Shown: positions 1,770 to 11,151 of the stretch, one piece after another
Layout: each line of letters starts with the position of its first letter
How positions within the stretch are numbered: position 1 is the stretch's first letter
Origin: Pseudomonadota bacterium
GTDB lineage: Bacteria > Pseudomonadota > Gammaproteobacteria > Burkholderiales > Burkholderiaceae_C
Direction of reading: 5' to 3'
Assembly: GCA_021808525.1 (NCBI GenBank)
Contig: JAKBBK010000007.1
Span: forward strand, 16,335-80,334
DNA length: 64,000 nucleotides
Program-made: the position numbers and the translations under genes
The notes under the pieces: model-generated
What the model saw: the letters and a program-made list of their open reading frames with translations, nothing else
What the model was told of the DNA's origin: nothing
Database searches by the model: none

Positions 1770-3668
1770 TCAGGCGCCCACCGGGGTCCAGGTCAGCTCC
1801 AGGAACACGCCCAGCGGCTGGGTCTCGTAGCCGTAGTTGGTCTGGTAGTGGCGGTCGAACAGGTTGTCCACCCGCAGGCGCCAGCTCCACTCGCGGGTGA
1901 TGTTGCGCCCGGCGCTCAGGTCGACCACCGCGTAGGACCCGAGGGTGGTGGCGCCGAAGGGGTCGTAGCGCGGACCCGAATAATGCACTTCCGAGCCCAG
2001 CAGCAGGCCCCCCACCTCGCGCTGCAGGCCGGCATTGGCCAGGGTGTGCGGCACCAGCGGGATGGTCGCGCCCCCCGCTCCGGCAGAGGTGTTGACCGGA
2101 TCCTGCAGGGTCAGGTTGCCGTGCCAGCGCCAGTCTCCACGAGACCCGCGCAGGCTCAGCTCCAGTCCCCGCGTGCGCGTGCTGTCGAGGTTCTGGAACT
2201 GGCCGATGAAATTCACCGGGTCCACGGTCGCGTAGGCCCACTGATCGGTGGCCATGGTCTGGAACAGCGTGGCGCGCAGGTACTGCGCGCCACGCGCCCA
2301 TTGCAACCCGGCCTCGACCGAATGCGCCCTCTCGGGCTTCAGCGCGGGGTTGGGAATGGTGCCGAACATGCCCGGCACCTGGTAGTACAGATAGCCCAGC
2401 GGAGGCGCGTTGAAGGCCGTGGACGCATCGGCCAGCAGCTTGAAGCCGCCGCCCACCGGACGCCCCCAGCCCAGGTAGGCGGTGTCCTGCCCGGAAAACC
2501 CGCCGACCTCGTCATGGCGCAGGTTCAGCTGAACTTCGTTGCCGGCCAGCGTGCCGTCGAGGCCGGCGAACACCGCGTTGGCGTGGCGGCTGACCGAGGG
2601 AATGCCGCCGCTGCCGTCGCTGTCGATGGACTGGCGCTGCAGGTCCAGCCCGCCGGTGGCGGTCCACGCGGAGTTCAGGCGCACGACGTTGCGCCACTCC
2701 AGCTGGTCGATGCGCGTGCGATAGTCCGCCGCATAGGCGCCGCCGAAGCTGCTGCGCGTGGTCTGCTCCGACAGGCTCAGGTGCGAGGTCCAGGCCTGGG
2801 TGAAGCGGTCGTCGGAATGCAGCCCGAACAGGCTCTGGTGCGTGCTGCCGCCGACGGTGCCGTTGTCATAGGTGTAGCGCCCCAGGCTGTCGTAGGCCAG
2901 CAGGCCCAGCTCGTGCCCCGGCGCGAGCTTGTGGCGAATGGACAGGTTCGCGGTGTTGTTGCGGTAGCCGTCGGAGGCATCGGGCAGGCCCGATTGCAAC
3001 GGGTCCTGCGAGGGGATGCCCTGCGTGGTGTAGCGGCTGAAACCGCCTTGCAGCTCGGTGCGCCCCACGCTGGCGTCGGCCTCGACGGAGGTGCTCGCCG
3101 TGCCCTGGCTGCCGCCGCCCACCGACACGCTGGCATGCGGCCCGGAGCCCGCGCCTCGGGTGGTGATCAGCACCACGCCCCCCACCGCGCCGGAGCCGTA
3201 GATCGCCGAGACATTGCCGCGAATCACCTCGACGCGCTCGATCTGCCGGGTCTGCAGGTTGCTGAGGTAGGCATTGCCGGTGGAGTCCTGCGCGTTCATC
3301 GGCACGCCGTCGAGCAGCACCAGCACATTGGGGCCGCTGAAGCCCCGGATGAACACATTGCCGCTCTGGCCCGGCCCCCCCGCGCTGGTGATCTGCACGC
3401 CCACGACCTGGCGCAGCAGGCTGCCCAGGTTGTGCGCGCCCGAGGCCTCGATGTCCTCGCGCGTGAGCACGCTCACGCTGGGCAGCGCGGCGCTCAGGGG
3501 CTGCGCGTAGGTCGAGGCCGACACGACCACCGGCGGCAGCACGACGGCAGGCTGGGCCTGGGCGCCGGCCCAGGCGCATGCGCCCAGCAGCGCGAGCAGG
3601 CGCGGGCGCGCGGACAAGCCGCCGGCGGCGGCACGGAACTTCGGGAAACGATGGCGACGATGGCCCAT
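1770..3668 (-). CDS. btuB: TonB-dependent outer-membrane receptor, vitamin B12 (BtuB) type
   Basis: About 632 residues from the chosen start. A signal peptide (MGHRRHRF..., cleavage near AQAQPAV) is followed by a plug domain with SVSVLTREDIEASGA, the NVFIRGF and VLVLLDGVPMN strands and IERVEVIRG, then a 22-strand-type barrel ending in an aromatic strand. Length and plug motifs fit BtuB-like receptors. The frame continues open for 85 codons upstream, but that part overlaps the cobalamin riboswitch, so ATG at 3668 was chosen. The riboswitch strongly indicates a corrinoid substrate, which would be passed by TonB-ExbBD energy to a periplasmic binding protein. No btuCDF or other B12 genes are in the window. 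Confidence 0.85.
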   Translation of the reverse strand: MGHRRHRFPKFRAAAGGLSARPRLLALLGACAWAGAQAQPAVVLPPVVVSASTYAQPLSAALPSVSVLTREDIEASGAHNLGSLLRQVVGVQITSAGGPGQSGNVFIRGFSGPNVLVLLDGVPMNAQDSTGNAYLSNLQTRQIERVEVIRGNVSAIYGSGAVGGVVLITTRGAGSGPHASVSVGGGSQGTASTSVEADASVGRTELQGGFSRYTTQGIPSQDPLQSGLPDASDGYRNNTANLSIRHKLAPGHELGLLAYDSLGRYTYDNGTVGGSTHQSLFGLHSDDRFTQAWTSHLSLSEQTTRSSFGGAYAADYRTRIDQLEWRNVVRLNSAWTATGGLDLQRQSIDSDGSGGIPSVSRHANAVFAGLDGTLAGNEVQLNLRHDEVGGFSGQDTAYLGWGRPVGGGFKLLADASTAFNAPPLGYLYYQVPGMFGTIPNPALKPERAHSVEAGLQWARGAQYLRATLFQTMATDQWAYATVDPVNFIGQFQNLDSTRTRGLELSLRGSRGDWRWHGNLTLQDPVNTSAGAGGATIPLVPHTLANAGLQREVGGLLLGSEVHYSGPRYDPFGATTLGSYAVVDLSAGRNITREWSWRLRVDNLFDRHYQTNYGYETQPLGVFLELTWTPVGA

Positions 3669-3794
3669 GACGGACGACTCCAGGAGCAAGCACGTCCCGC
3701 GCCTCCCGCACGGGGTCTTGAACGCTGGAGCTCGCGCGCGGCATGCCGCGGCACGCGTGCCCGGCACGACTCCACCTACCGACCCCGGACGGCG

Positions 3795-3970
3795 AAGCCC
3801 CAACGTGTCGGCCGGTATCCGGGCTGGCGGCATGCCCGGACGGCCTTCCCGGGCGAACCCAGTGGCCTGCTTGTCCGGGCTCGGAACCAGGTTCCGGGCC
3901 GTTGACCGTTGCGGGGGCAGCACAGGCCGGGAGCGGCAGCGCCGGACTCCTCCTGTTTCCCGTTTAACGT
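3795..3970 (-). promoter_or_regulatory. cobalamin (AdoCbl) riboswitch upstream of btuB
   Basis: Read on the minus strand the leader contains the hallmark segments in order: the GCTGCCCCCGCAAC box (plus-strand 3908-3921), the GCCACTGGG...GGGAAGG element (about 3842-3866) and a B12-box-like AGCCCGGATACCGGCC (about 3810-3825). These match the conserved core of cobalamin riboswitches. It should repress btuB when adenosylcobalamin is plentiful. The ends are approximate because no folding was run. Confidence 0.9.
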
Positions 3971-4096
3971 GGCATCGCGAACGCGACGCCAGCGCACCAA
4001 CGCGACGAAGTCTAGCAGCGGTACGTCGGCCGCCCCGGCGAAGACATGCAGCGAATTGACGATGAGGTCCGGGCTCTCTTAGACTTCAATGCGTCC

Positions 4097-4160
4097 ATGG
4101 CGATGGAGTTCGCCATTCACAATCGCCCCGCATCACACGGGGGCTGATGACTCCTACCGG
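4097..4160 (+). promoter_or_regulatory. fluoride (crcB motif) riboswitch
   Basis: The segment shows the fluoride-aptamer core: GGCGATGGAGTTCGCC near its 5' end (4099-4114), a CGCC strand in the middle (4124-4127), and the closing GCTGATGACTCCTACC (4143-4158), close to the published crcB-motif consensus. It lies about 140 bp upstream of crcB, so fluoride binding would switch on the crcB-DUF190-MFS operon. A small G+C hairpin follows around 4162-4180 and may be part of the expression platform. Confidence 0.92.
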
Positions 4161-4298
4161 ACGCCGCGCAATGCGGCGGCAGCCAACCATGGAGGAGTCG
4201 AACCCACCCCTGTTCCCCACGCATGCCGCACGAGCCGGCTCCGCGCCGTGGCTCGCATACGTCCGCCCTTTCGGCGATTCTCGATCGAGATCCTCGAC

Positions 4299-4676
4299 AT
4301 GACCTACGTGTTCATCGCCATCTTCGCCATCCTCGGCGCCTTCGCGCGCTACGGCCAGACCCTGCTCGTGCAGGGCGTACTGGGCCGCGGCTTTCCCTTC
4401 GCGACCCTGTCGATCAACGTGCTGGGCTCCTTTCTCATGGGCTTCCTGTTCTTCCTCACCCTGGAGCGGGTGAACCTGCCCCCGGCGCTGCGCACCGGCA
4501 TCCTGACCGGCGGCCTGGGCGCCTACACCACCTTCTCCACCTTCTCCCTGGAGACCCTCAACCTCCTGGAAGGCGGAGAATGGACCAGGGCGGTGCTGTA
4601 CGTCGCCGCATCGGTGCTGCTTTCGATCGCCGCGGTGATCCTCGGCGCCTACCTGTCTCGCAACCTGGGAGCCTGA
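4299..4676 (+). CDS. crcB: fluoride channel Fluc/CrcB
   Basis: 125 residues, four hydrophobic helices, typical Fluc length. Diagnostic motifs are NVLGSFLMGF in helix 2 and GGLGAYTTFSTFS in helix 3, which carries the Phe/Thr residues lining the fluoride pore. The protein acts as an antiparallel dimer in the inner membrane and exports F-. The start was set at ATG 4299 because it begins directly with the first helix; the longer frame upstream overlaps the leader. It is first gene of a fluoride-riboswitch operon and is followed 2 bp later by the DUF190 gene. Confidence 0.95.
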   Translation: MTYVFIAIFAILGAFARYGQTLLVQGVLGRGFPFATLSINVLGSFLMGFLFFLTLERVNLPPALRTGILTGGLGAYTTFSTFSLETLNLLEGGEWTRAVLYVAASVLLSIAAVILGAYLSRNLGA

Positions 4677-4678
4677 GC

Positions 4679-4993
4679 ATGAAGGACGTGACCATCGCCC
4701 GCATCTACATCAAGGAAGGCGACAAGGTGCAGGGCCACAACCTGATGCAGCAGATCTTTCGCCTGCTGCACGAGGAGCACAAGGTGCACGGGGTCACCGT
4801 GTTCCGCGGCATCGCGGGCTTCGGCAGCCACGGCGAGGTGCATGCCGACGACCTGCTGCGCCTGGCCGTGCACCTGCCCCTGGTGCTGGAGTTCTACGAT
4901 TCGCCCGAAGTGGTGGCCGACGTGCTGCCCCGCATCCAGCAGATGGTGCCGGCCGGGCACATCGTGTCCTGGCAGGCGCGCTGCGGAGCCTGA
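4679..4993 (+). CDS. DUF190 family protein
   Basis: 104 residues matching the DUF190 family: a PII-like ferredoxin fold with RIYIKEGDK at the start, the HGVTVFRGIAGFG core and a C-terminal LPLVLEFYDSPE segment. DUF190 genes are commonly found next to crcB, and here the gene starts two bases after the crcB stop, so the two are co-transcribed under the fluoride riboswitch. A regulatory or sensing role on CrcB by analogy with PII proteins is an inference, not demonstrated by the sequence. Confidence 0.88.
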   Translation: MKDVTIARIYIKEGDKVQGHNLMQQIFRLLHEEHKVHGVTVFRGIAGFGSHGEVHADDLLRLAVHLPLVLEFYDSPEVVADVLPRIQQMVPAGHIVSWQARCGA

Positions 4994-4998
4994 ACCGC

Positions 4999-6270
4999 AT
5001 GGAGCCCTCGCCGCGGGAATCGGAGCAGGAGCACCGGCAGTCACCGGGCCGCTGGCTCAACGCCACGGTGGCCGGCGCCGGCATCACCAGCGCGCTGGGA
5101 GACTTCTGCTACGAGACCACCACCGTCATGCTGCCCGGTTTCCTGGCCGCGCTGGGCCTGCCCGCCAGCGCGCTGGGCACCATCGAGGGCCTGGCCGACG
5201 CGGTGGCCAGTTTCACGCGCATGGGCGCGGGGCATGCCGCCGACCGGCTCGGCCACCGCAAGCTGCTGGTGGTGCTGGGCTACGCGATGACCCCGCTGGG
5301 CCAGGCGCTGATCGCGCTGGCGGCCGGCTGGCCGCTGATCCTGCTCGGGCGCCTGGTGTCCTGGTTCGGCAAGGGCCTGCGCGGGCCGCTGCGCGACGCC
5401 ATCGTGATCCAGGCGGTGCAGCCCCACACCAAGGGTCGGGCCTTCGGATTTCACCGCGCGGCGGACACCGTGGGCGCGGTGCTCGGCCCCCTTCTGGGCG
5501 TGGCCCTGCTCGGCTGGGCGCAGCGCCTGCACTGGCACGGCACGACCGCTCCGTTCCGCCTGGTGCTGTGGCTGTCGATCCTGCCCGGCCTGCTGGCCGT
5601 GCTGGCCTTCGTGCTGCTGGTGCGCGACCCGATGCACTCGCCGAACCCCCGGGCGAGTTTCCTGGGCTCGCTGCGCGAACTGCCCCCCGGCTTCCGGCGC
5701 TACCTCGGAGCCGTCGGGCTGTTCGGCGCCGGGGACTTCTCGGCCTCGCTGCTGATCCTGGCCGCGACCACCTTGCTGGCGCCCTCGCTGGGCATGCTGC
5801 GCGCGGCGCAGGTGGCCGGGCTGCTGTACGTGTGGCGCAACATCGTGCAGGTCGTGGCCTCCTACCCCATCGGCTGGCTGGCCGACCGTTTCGGCCACAT
5901 GCGCCTGCTGCGCGCGGGCTATGCACTGGGGGTCGCCACCGCCCTGCTCGCCGCCCTGGCCTTCGGGATGCATGCGCATGGCATGGTGCTGCTGGGCACG
6001 CTGTTCCTGCTCTCCGGCCTGTACGTGGCGATCGAGGAAGCGCTGGAGCCCACGGTGAGCGCGGAAATGCTGCGCGCCGAGGGCCTGGTCACCGGATATG
6101 CCGCCCTGGGCACGGTCAACGGGGTCGCGCGCCTGGTCTCCAGCAGCCTGGTCGGCCTGGTGTGGACGGCCGCCTCGGCGGCACTGGCCTTCGGGCTGGC
6201 CGCCCTGCTCATGGCCGGCGGCACCGCGGCGCTGCTGCGCGAGGCCGGCGCTCCGCGTCGCCAGGCTTGA
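4999..6270 (+). CDS. MFS transporter in the fluoride operon
   Basis: 423 residues with about 12 hydrophobic segments and the MFS signature loop between helices 2 and 3 (HAADRLGHRK), repeated as LADRFGHMR in the second half. N-terminal LGDFCYETTTVMLPGFL resembles drug/metabolite efflux members of the family. It begins 5 bp after the DUF190 stop and so belongs to the fluoride-responsive transcript. It may export another compound formed or needed under fluoride stress; the substrate is unknown. Confidence 0.8.
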   Translation: MEPSPRESEQEHRQSPGRWLNATVAGAGITSALGDFCYETTTVMLPGFLAALGLPASALGTIEGLADAVASFTRMGAGHAADRLGHRKLLVVLGYAMTPLGQALIALAAGWPLILLGRLVSWFGKGLRGPLRDAIVIQAVQPHTKGRAFGFHRAADTVGAVLGPLLGVALLGWAQRLHWHGTTAPFRLVLWLSILPGLLAVLAFVLLVRDPMHSPNPRASFLGSLRELPPGFRRYLGAVGLFGAGDFSASLLILAATTLLAPSLGMLRAAQVAGLLYVWRNIVQVVASYPIGWLADRFGHMRLLRAGYALGVATALLAALAFGMHAHGMVLLGTLFLLSGLYVAIEEALEPTVSAEMLRAEGLVTGYAALGTVNGVARLVSSSLVGLVWTAASAALAFGLAALLMAGGTAALLREAGAPRRQA

Positions 6271-6542: not shown

Positions 6543-7217
6543 ATGCAGATCCCCCAAGCCGCGACCGATGCGCTGGATGCACTGCGCAACACCGTGCGGG
6601 CCATGTTCGGCCCCGACCTGGTCGCCCACGACTTCGGCCACATCGAGCGCGTCGAACGCAACGCCGCGCGACTGCTGGAAGCCGAGGCGGCCGACCGCTT
6701 CGTCGTCGGCGCGGCATGCCTGCTGCACGACCTGCACCGCATCCTCGAGCGCGACCGCGGTCACCACGTGGCGCCCGAGCAGGCCGACGCCGAGGTGCAT
6801 CGGCTGCTCACCGCGCAGGCCGTGGACGAAGCGACCATCCAGCATGTCTGCGCCTGCATCCACGCCACCGAGCGCTATCGCTGTGCCGGCGATCTCATCG
6901 ATGCGTCGGCGATGAGCGTGGAGCAGCGCATCGTGCGCGATGCCGACATGCTCGACGCCCTGGGCGCCATCGGCATCGCCCGCGCCTTCATGTTCGGGGG
7001 CCGACTGGGCGAACCGCTCTGGGTCGCCGGACCGGTCGGCGGCAGTTTCCGGCACGGACGCGCCACCTCGGTGGTGCACCATTTCCACGAGAAGCTGCTC
7101 GGGCTGCATGGAGAAATGCTCACCGACATGGGCCGGCGCATCGCCCTGGAACGCACCCGCCGCATGCGTGAATATCTGGATGCGCTGCGGGAAGAACTCG
7201 GCCTGAGCTCGTTCTGA
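6543..7217 (+). CDS. HD-domain phosphohydrolase (copy 1)
   Basis: 224 residues, YedJ-like HD superfamily. Metal ligands are visible as HDFGHIERV (residues about 29-37), LLHDLHR (HD pair, about 60-66), the IHATERY helix and the later RDADMLDALG aspartate. Such proteins hydrolyse phosphate esters of small molecules or nucleotides; the substrate is not known. By eye it is roughly three-quarters identical to the protein at 10468-11151, the two bracketing a cassette of other genes. Its start is the ATG after an AGGAGCGATGAACC stretch that offers a Shine-Dalgarno sequence. Confidence 0.85.
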   Translation: MQIPQAATDALDALRNTVRAMFGPDLVAHDFGHIERVERNAARLLEAEAADRFVVGAACLLHDLHRILERDRGHHVAPEQADAEVHRLLTAQAVDEATIQHVCACIHATERYRCAGDLIDASAMSVEQRIVRDADMLDALGAIGIARAFMFGGRLGEPLWVAGPVGGSFRHGRATSVVHHFHEKLLGLHGEMLTDMGRRIALERTRRMREYLDALREELGLSSF

Positions 7218-9666: not shown

Positions 9667-10477
9667 GGATTCGCCGCGCGGATCTGCAAGCGAGAGGTTC
9701 GACGCTTTCGGTTTTGATTTGGCCCGCCATGACGCAACCATGCGATTCCTGAACCTTTATTTCGAGTATTGGCATCGTGTTTCCGCTGAAGGCCTGGAGA
9801 AGATTCCACAAGGACCGATGATTGCCTACGGGAATCATGCCGGTTTCAATTTGCTCGATGCGCTGATGCTGATGGTCGCAGCAAGGCAGCACGCCCCGTG
9901 CAGACGGCCGCTTCGCCTGCTGCATCACATCGGCATCGAAAAGATGCCGCTGATCGGATATTTCATGCAGCAACGCCTCGGTGCCGTGATCGGGCACCCC
10001 GCAAATGCCGATTACATCCTGGGAAAAGGAGAAGCCATCCTGACGTATCCGGAGGGAGGCTATAGCACCAGCCGCCCCTTCACCTCACGCCGCAGTCTTT
10101 CAGCGCTCGACCATTTTGGCGCCGGATTCTTGCGCCTGGCCGCACGAACGGGAGCATGGCTGCTGCCCGTCGCCACGGTGGGCTGCGAGGAGGCCATCCC
10201 GACGCTTGCGCTCTCGCGACGCCTCGGCCGCCACTTCAAGTTCGACCAATCGCTTTATCCGGTCGTGCCGCAAAGCGCCGTGACCCTGCTGCCCAGCTTG
10301 CTCGGCGTCCCGCTGCACCACTTCCACTTTCTCATGGGGTTCCCCTCGCATATCCGAATCCGCGTGGGCACTCCGTGGAAGCTGGGTCCGAATGCAGATA
10401 TCGAGGCGGCACGCCAGTCGTCTTACCACGCACTTGCAGGCATGGTGGCTTGCCTGGCGAACGAACCATGCCCTTGA
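9653..10477 (+). CDS. lysophospholipid acyltransferase-like (PlsC superfamily) protein
   Basis: 274 residues from ATG 9653, which overlaps the preceding gene. The block-I acceptor motif is NHAGFNLLD, an H-x6-D spacing as in TMEM68/DGAT-like members rather than the PlsC H-x4-D, and a later AILTYPEGGYS corresponds to the FPEGTR block. It likely transfers an acyl chain to an unidentified alcohol or amine acceptor at the inner face of the membrane. Its tail overlaps the start of the second HD gene by 10 bp, implying translational coupling with it. Confidence 0.75.
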   Translation: MPIPEDSPRGSASERFDAFGFDLARHDATMRFLNLYFEYWHRVSAEGLEKIPQGPMIAYGNHAGFNLLDALMLMVAARQHAPCRRPLRLLHHIGIEKMPLIGYFMQQRLGAVIGHPANADYILGKGEAILTYPEGGYSTSRPFTSRRSLSALDHFGAGFLRLAARTGAWLLPVATVGCEEAIPTLALSRRLGRHFKFDQSLYPVVPQSAVTLLPSLLGVPLHHFHFLMGFPSHIRIRVGTPWKLGPNADIEAARQSSYHALAGMVACLANEPCP

Positions 10478-11151
10478 CTCGAGGCACCGCCCATACGCTC
10501 GAAGCGCTCGAGGCGCTTCGCACAAACGTGCACGCGATGTTCGGCCACGGCGTGGTGGCCCACGACTTCGCGCACATCGAACGGGTCGAGCGCAACGCCG
10601 CACACCTGCTCGAGATCGAAGCCGGCGACCCTTTCGTCGTCGGCGCAGCCTGCCTGCTGCACGACCTGCACCGCATCCTGGAGCGAGACCTCGGCCACCA
10701 TGTCGCGCCCGAGCAGGCCGATGCCCAAGTGCGCAGACGCCTGGACGAGCAAGGCGTCGACACGACGACCATCGACCATGTATGCGACTGCATCCATGCC
10801 ACCGAGCGCTATCGCTGTGCTGGTGACCTTATCGATGCGGCGTCGATGAGCGCCGAGCAGCGCATCGTGCGCGACGCCGACATGCTCGATGCGCTGGGCG
10901 CCGTGGGCATCGCGCGCGCCTTCATGTTCGGCGGCCGCCTGGGCGAACCTCTGTGGGCGACCGAACCGATCAGCGACACGTTCCAGCCCGGCCACACTGC
11001 GTCGATCGTGCACCACTTCCACGAGAAACTGCTGCATCTGCATCGGGAGATGCTCACCGACGAAGGCCGACGGATCGCCATCGAGCGCACGCGCTTGATG
11101 CACCACTACCTCGATGCACTGCGCAAGGAACCGGACTCCAATTTGCCCTGA
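10468..11151 (+). CDS. HD-domain phosphohydrolase (copy 2)
   Basis: 227 residues, near-duplicate of the protein at 6543-7217: identical stretches include HIERVERNAA, VVGAACLLHDLHRILERD and RIVRDADMLDALGA, so all HD metal ligands are kept. The ATG at 10468 lies inside the acyltransferase gene. Nucleotide differences are spread over the gene, arguing for an old duplication or acquisition of a diverged homologue with the cassette rather than a recent copy. Being coupled to the Nudix/adenosylhomocysteinase-like/acyltransferase genes, it may act in their pathway. Confidence 0.85.
   Translation: MPLTRGTAHTLEALEALRTNVHAMFGHGVVAHDFAHIERVERNAAHLLEIEAGDPFVVGAACLLHDLHRILERDLGHHVAPEQADAQVRRRLDEQGVDTTTIDHVCDCIHATERYRCAGDLIDAASMSAEQRIVRDADMLDALGAVGIARAFMFGGRLGEPLWATEPISDTFQPGHTASIVHHFHEKLLHLHREMLTDEGRRIAIERTRLMHHYLDALRKEPDSNLP

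Follow-up and report, generated by a model that had tools for sequence, protein, structure and literature searches.

Organization of the operon

Bacterial fluoride resistance is usually accounted for by export through CrcB or CLC, together with spare copies of the enzymes that fluoride inhibits. Here, we examined a gene for an MFS transporter that stands behind a fluoride riboswitch, crcB, and a DUF190 gene. The locus lies in a 64,000-nucleotide stretch of DNA, hereafter the window, from a 3.2-Mb draft genome (G000), and has the following features:

4056–4085, + strand: sigma-70-like promoter (TTGACG-18-TAGACT), with a putative transcription start at the aptamer (scan: 1 found, 0.1 expected)
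4090–4163, + strand: fluoride riboswitch aptamer (crcB RNA motif, RF01734; cmscan 52.6 bits, gathering score 34)
4149–4199, + strand: possible expression platform, in which GACTCCT (4149–4155) would pair with AGGAGTC (4193–4199) (exact complement search and alignment)
4299–4676, + strand: crcB, fluoride channel/exporter (Fluc) (PF02537, E 6.6e-27; TIGR00494 over the cut-off)
4679–4993, + strand: DUF190 protein gene (COG1993) (PF02641, E 9e-27)
4999–6270, + strand: MFS transporter gene, 423 aa, with a DHA1-like 12-helix exporter fold (PF07690, MFS_1, E 1.7e-23; AlphaFold2 pLDDT 90.5; best PDB fold, NorA)

The original prediction had described a clear aptamer core followed by three nearly contiguous genes. 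The Rfam scan of the window bore out the aptamer (E 1e-11), although it begins 7 bases before the predicted position 4097, and the gaps between the genes are indeed 2 bp (crcB to DUF190) and 5 bp (DUF190 to MFS). All three proteins scored above the Pfam cut-offs, and the first two are assigned to the CrcB/Fluc and DUF190 families, respectively. The association of riboswitch, CrcB, DUF190, and MFS in the window is therefore real. The fluoride riboswitch is the only one found in a scan of the source genome, and no second copy of the MFS gene was found there; crcB occurs twice, with the second gene outside the operon. Divergently from the fluoride operon, a cobalamin riboswitch (3793–4016, − strand) lies upstream of a TonB-dependent receptor gene (1770–3923, − strand). 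On the other side of the operon, the window also contains two paralogous HD-domain hydrolase genes (6543–7217 and 10456–11151) with 77% identity, separated by about 3.2 kb.

The leader and its variation within the genus

Four bases separate the aptamer from the promoter-like site upstream, whose last base is 4085, and alignment showed that both hexamers are kept in the related locus L039. The GACTCCT segment forms the 3′ side of the aptamer, and its 7-bp alternative pairing excludes the aptamer fold. In L039, a T6 run stands behind the same anti-aptamer stem, resembling an intrinsic terminator, whereas the aligned T run of the window is degraded, and a terminator scan of the window leader scored none. 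Together, the promoter-like site, the alternative stem, and the T6 run of L039 make a fluoride ON switch plausible at the window leader.

Contiguous crcB-DUF190-MFS genes were found in five genomes of the genus (MFS identity of at least 86%), and a fluoride riboswitch precedes them in two, the window and L039. The other three operons (L037, L038, and L040, the last from Thiomonas sp. FB-6) have no fluoride riboswitch, and the segment of about 200 bp that holds the promoter and aptamer is absent. Directly upstream of crcB, they carry instead the opposite-strand cobalamin riboswitch that in the window precedes the TonB receptor gene. The predicted control by a fluoride riboswitch thus holds for the window and for one of its four closest relatives with the three-gene operon, but not for the other three, which lack the riboswitch. 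With the riboswitch missing from three of five operons, the gene cluster is, judging from these genomes, more stable within the genus than its riboswitch.

Linkage of the MFS subfamily to fluoride genes

A profile built on the MFS protein was run against GTDB contigs, and the best 80 of 135 loci, four loci from plasmids, and the window made up a set of 85 loci. Riboswitches were called with a covariance model trained on 15 examples of the fluoride class, and neighboring proteins with iterated HMMs, representative matches being confirmed with Pfam. A locus was labeled as fluoride-linked when a riboswitch, CrcB, DUF190, or CLC occurred within about 6 kb of the MFS gene. The marker counts are lower bounds, since the set samples the subfamily and not all contigs are long.

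The fluoride label was assigned to at least 39 of the 85 sampled loci (best 80 of 135, four plasmid loci, and the window), and to at least 20 of 42 after collapse at 85% identity. The markers near the MFS gene were a riboswitch at no fewer than 31 sampled loci (30 by the covariance model, plus the window), CrcB at 23 or more, DUF190 at 25 or more, and CLC at 11 or more; enolase (at least 11 loci), an Na+/H+ antiporter (at least 9), ChrB (at least 25), and an Exo_endo_phos protein (at least 16) were further neighbors. No fluoride marker was found at 46 of the 85, that is, at more than half of this same sample.

The subfamily is rare, occurring in 6 of 300 genomes of the order and 2 of 399 of the phylum, and in the unselected order sample, fluoride genes stood beside the MFS gene at three of the six loci. 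CrcB was near the MFS gene at 27% of loci, compared with about 0.6% expected from the density of CrcB in 13-kb stretches, and the corresponding values for the riboswitch were 36% and about 0.07%. A chance neighborhood was rejected, as the linkage lies far above background density. A fluoride riboswitch was present in 46 of 79 genomes with the MFS gene versus 44 of 300 in the order, although the two scans differed in depth. Around distant MFS relatives, taken as a control, fluoride genes occurred at 1 of 20 loci within 6 kb and at 3 of 20 slightly further out. The two loci gained in this way had CrcB right on the 6-kb limit or a little past it; including them moves the Fisher p value from 0.0006 to 0.012, so that this control is weaker than it appears at first sight. 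On the 85-locus MFS tree, no fewer than 17 changes were needed to account for the fluoride label, against a shuffled mean of 27.8. A single inherited linkage is not supported by this number, though only five of the changes are forced by well-supported branches.

Position of the MFS gene relative to the riboswitch

In eight lineages, the MFS gene follows a fluoride riboswitch on its own strand, and the genes between them are tightly packed: the Thiomonas group (the window and L039), a Marinobacter salarius plasmid (L034), Thiobacillus (L042), Variovorax (L044), a Bordetella MAG (L053), Castellaniella (L061), Rhodanobacter (L089), and Desulfonema (L111). The Thiobacillus operon encodes CrcB, a HIT-like ORF, DUF190, an Na+/H+ exchanger, Usp, and MFS. 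That of Desulfonema has a riboswitch, a dynamin-like GTPase, and MFS, with neither CrcB nor CLC detected at the locus. Across unrelated lineages, eight in all, the gene thus holds the recurrent downstream, same-strand position expected of a regulon member. The original prediction had proposed counting how often this MFS subfamily follows fluoride riboswitches, and these lineages, with the label counts above, show that the linkage is conserved and recurs across many unrelated bacteria.

A second arrangement is a recurrent ChrB_N-Exo_endo_phos-MFS set, found mostly in fluoride islands (L066, 4505–5916; L058, L067, L076, L079, L086, L087, L088, and L115). At these loci, the riboswitches often drive divergent neighboring genes rather than the MFS gene. 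ChrB_N has a weak PaaX_M match and may be a regulator. Some of the islands are large. In Paraburkholderia sp. DHOC27, 34 riboswitches fall in one 126-kb stretch (L068 contig, 51350–177321), and the genomes of L067, L079, L097, L105, L051, L054, and L089 have 8–14 clustered fluoride riboswitches. An island of about 36 kb with 10 riboswitches lies on a Burkholderia multivorans plasmid from a clinical isolate (L180; NZ_CP143553.1, 181000–220000), and encodes CLC, CrcB, two DUF190 proteins, two enolases, two pyrophosphatases, two MutS proteins, dynamin, NADH-quinone oxidoreductase-like proteins, CFA synthase, and the ChrB/EEP/MFS set. Such "super-islands" with many riboswitches were not met in the literature that we searched.

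The association with islands raises the main alternative, that the MFS protein is a general resistance pump for metals, oxyanions, or biocides that travels in stress islands and has little effect on fluoride; its place under a fluoride riboswitch would then reflect the joint assembly of such islands. The 46 sampled loci (best 80 of 135, four plasmid loci, and the window) without fluoride markers fit this explanation, as do the ChrB genes near at least 25 loci, CDF-type exporters near at least 8 of the 85, and the presence of the MFS in the mcr-5 operon and on Cupriavidus metal plasmids. However, eight lineages place the MFS gene on the riboswitch strand, close behind the riboswitch and its genes, and the linkage is to specific fluoride genes (CrcB, CLC, enolase, and DUF190), far above background. 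We regard a general pump as a serious possibility, though not a probable one.

Properties of the MFS protein

Motif A, the arginine of motif B, and motif C are marks of H+-driven exporters. Across 66 subfamily sequences, the residues G78, A81, G85, R87, and K88 of motif A, R118 of motif B, and G159, A160, G163, P164, and G167 of motif C were invariant, which together with the 12-helix MFS fold places the protein among the DHA1-type drug:H+ antiporters. Four acidic residues, D35, E39, E63, and D67, were also invariant, and lie in helices 1 and 2 of the AlphaFold2 model. The protein did not fall into the named multidrug exporter families MdtH, Tet, and EmrB; its best score was 37 bits against a cut-off of 469 (MdtH). 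Its nearest solved relative, both by sequence and by fold, is NorA. In the fold search, NorA, NupG, and G6PT scored alike, and spinster/SPNS2 and FLVCR1 were also among the matches. Because many types of MFS score alike, this search does not narrow the substrate. An organophosphate exporter like G6PT/PgtP was considered and gave weak matches only. The DHA1 motifs and the conserved acidic helix residues argue for H+-driven export of a cargo other than fluoride, and we infer from sequence and model that protons drive the export of a compound that is not an anion.

A second route for fluoride beside CrcB is conceivable, in which the MFS protein itself would act as a proton antiporter for fluoride, either free or complexed with a metal. 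The Desulfonema operon, where the dynamin-like GTPase and the MFS protein have no detected CrcB or CLC beside them, would fit such a route. At most linked loci, however, CrcB or CLC is also present, the acidic residues of helices 1 and 2 are ill-suited to an anion site, and no MFS fluoride exporter is known to us; we consider this route very unlikely. Alternatively, the protein could handle lipids, as a flippase for lysophospholipids or head groups that aids membrane repair under acid-fluoride stress. Its partners at various loci would suit this role: cyclopropane fatty acid synthase (at least 6 loci), the Exo_endo_phos-family enzyme (at least 16), the dynamin of L111, and the phosphoethanolamine transferase MCR-5, as would the spinster/SPNS2 and FLVCR1 fold matches. 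These fold matches do not discriminate, however, and the partner genes are diverse; a lipid transporter is also very unlikely.

Proposed role in fluoride resistance

What we observed directly is the order of the genes, the aptamer, the recurrence of the linkage, and motifs and a fold of the exporter type. On balance, we favor, by a modest degree of confidence, the explanation that 4056–6270 is a fluoride-induced operon whose MFS protein is a proton-driven accessory relief pump, from a subfamily repeatedly recruited to fluoride resistance. Fluoride would bind the aptamer and block the anti-aptamer stem, and transcription would then run through crcB, the DUF190 gene, and the MFS gene. CrcB would let F− out, and the MFS protein, as a DHA1-type exporter, would relieve the cell of another compound, most likely small and cationic, zwitterionic, or neutral rather than fluoride, that builds up or turns harmful under fluoride stress. 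On this view, members of the subfamily were drawn more than once into gene sets for fluoride resistance. A recurrent, apparently undescribed accessory exporter for fluoride stress is the likeliest reading of its function. Because it recurs beside fluoride-defense genes in unrelated bacteria, the MFS protein probably contributes, in a way not described before, to the survival of some bacteria under fluoride. An exporter of this kind, proton-driven and recurrent, would suggest that cells under fluoride stress make or retain a harmful compound. The MFS gene is a concrete candidate for fluoride resistance, with relevance to the engineering of bacteria for organofluorine breakdown.

Comparison with known systems

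The claim that an MFS carrier is not a known part of fluoride export agreed with the literature searched, in which neither reviews on fluoride nor papers on its operons name one. The term MFS does not occur in a review from 2024 on fluoride resistance in microbes (PMC11139923) or in the paper on the Enterobacter cloacae FRM operon (PMC5533749), and the part of the original crcB-motif paper that was consulted (PMC2864571) lists gene classes other than MFS. A targeted literature search that left aside the genes tabulated by Baker et al. (2012) found no paper linking such an MFS to fluoride riboswitches. The E. cloacae FRM riboswitch operon is ppaC-uspA-eno-gpmA-crcB-orf5249 (PMC5533749). It resembles the window in having an RF01734 riboswitch ahead of crcB and accessory stress genes, and genes for its Usp, enolase, and phosphoglycerate mutase are met again next to the MFS gene at other loci. 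In contrast, the paper's text has no MFS, and the window operon consists of CrcB, DUF190, and MFS only.

With the DHA1 multidrug H+ antiporters of the NorA/MdtH type, the window protein shares the 12-helix fold and the conserved motifs (A, C, and the arginine of B), but its identity over the fold alignment is only 14–17%, and its scores fall far short of the cut-off of every curated multidrug family.

The transporter of the mcr-5 operon (Tn6452, ChrB-MCR-5-MFS) is given only as a "type transporter" in two ORFs (review PMC9462459). It shares about 70% identity with the window protein and falls inside the same subfamily on the tree; in enterobacteria, the match to most of the plasmid copies is split in two. 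A search of the mcr-5 plasmid record from Cupriavidus gilardii gave no fluoride riboswitch. It is possible, though less likely than not, that the subfamily is a dedicated, undescribed fluoride-defense component exporting a toxic metabolite induced by fluoride, and that the mcr-5/Tn6452 transporter descends from that module, which would offer an origin for an otherwise unexplained transporter. ChrB accompanies the fluoride-linked members as it does the mcr-5 member, whereas MCR-5 occupies the place that the Exo_endo_phos gene holds in the fluoride islands.
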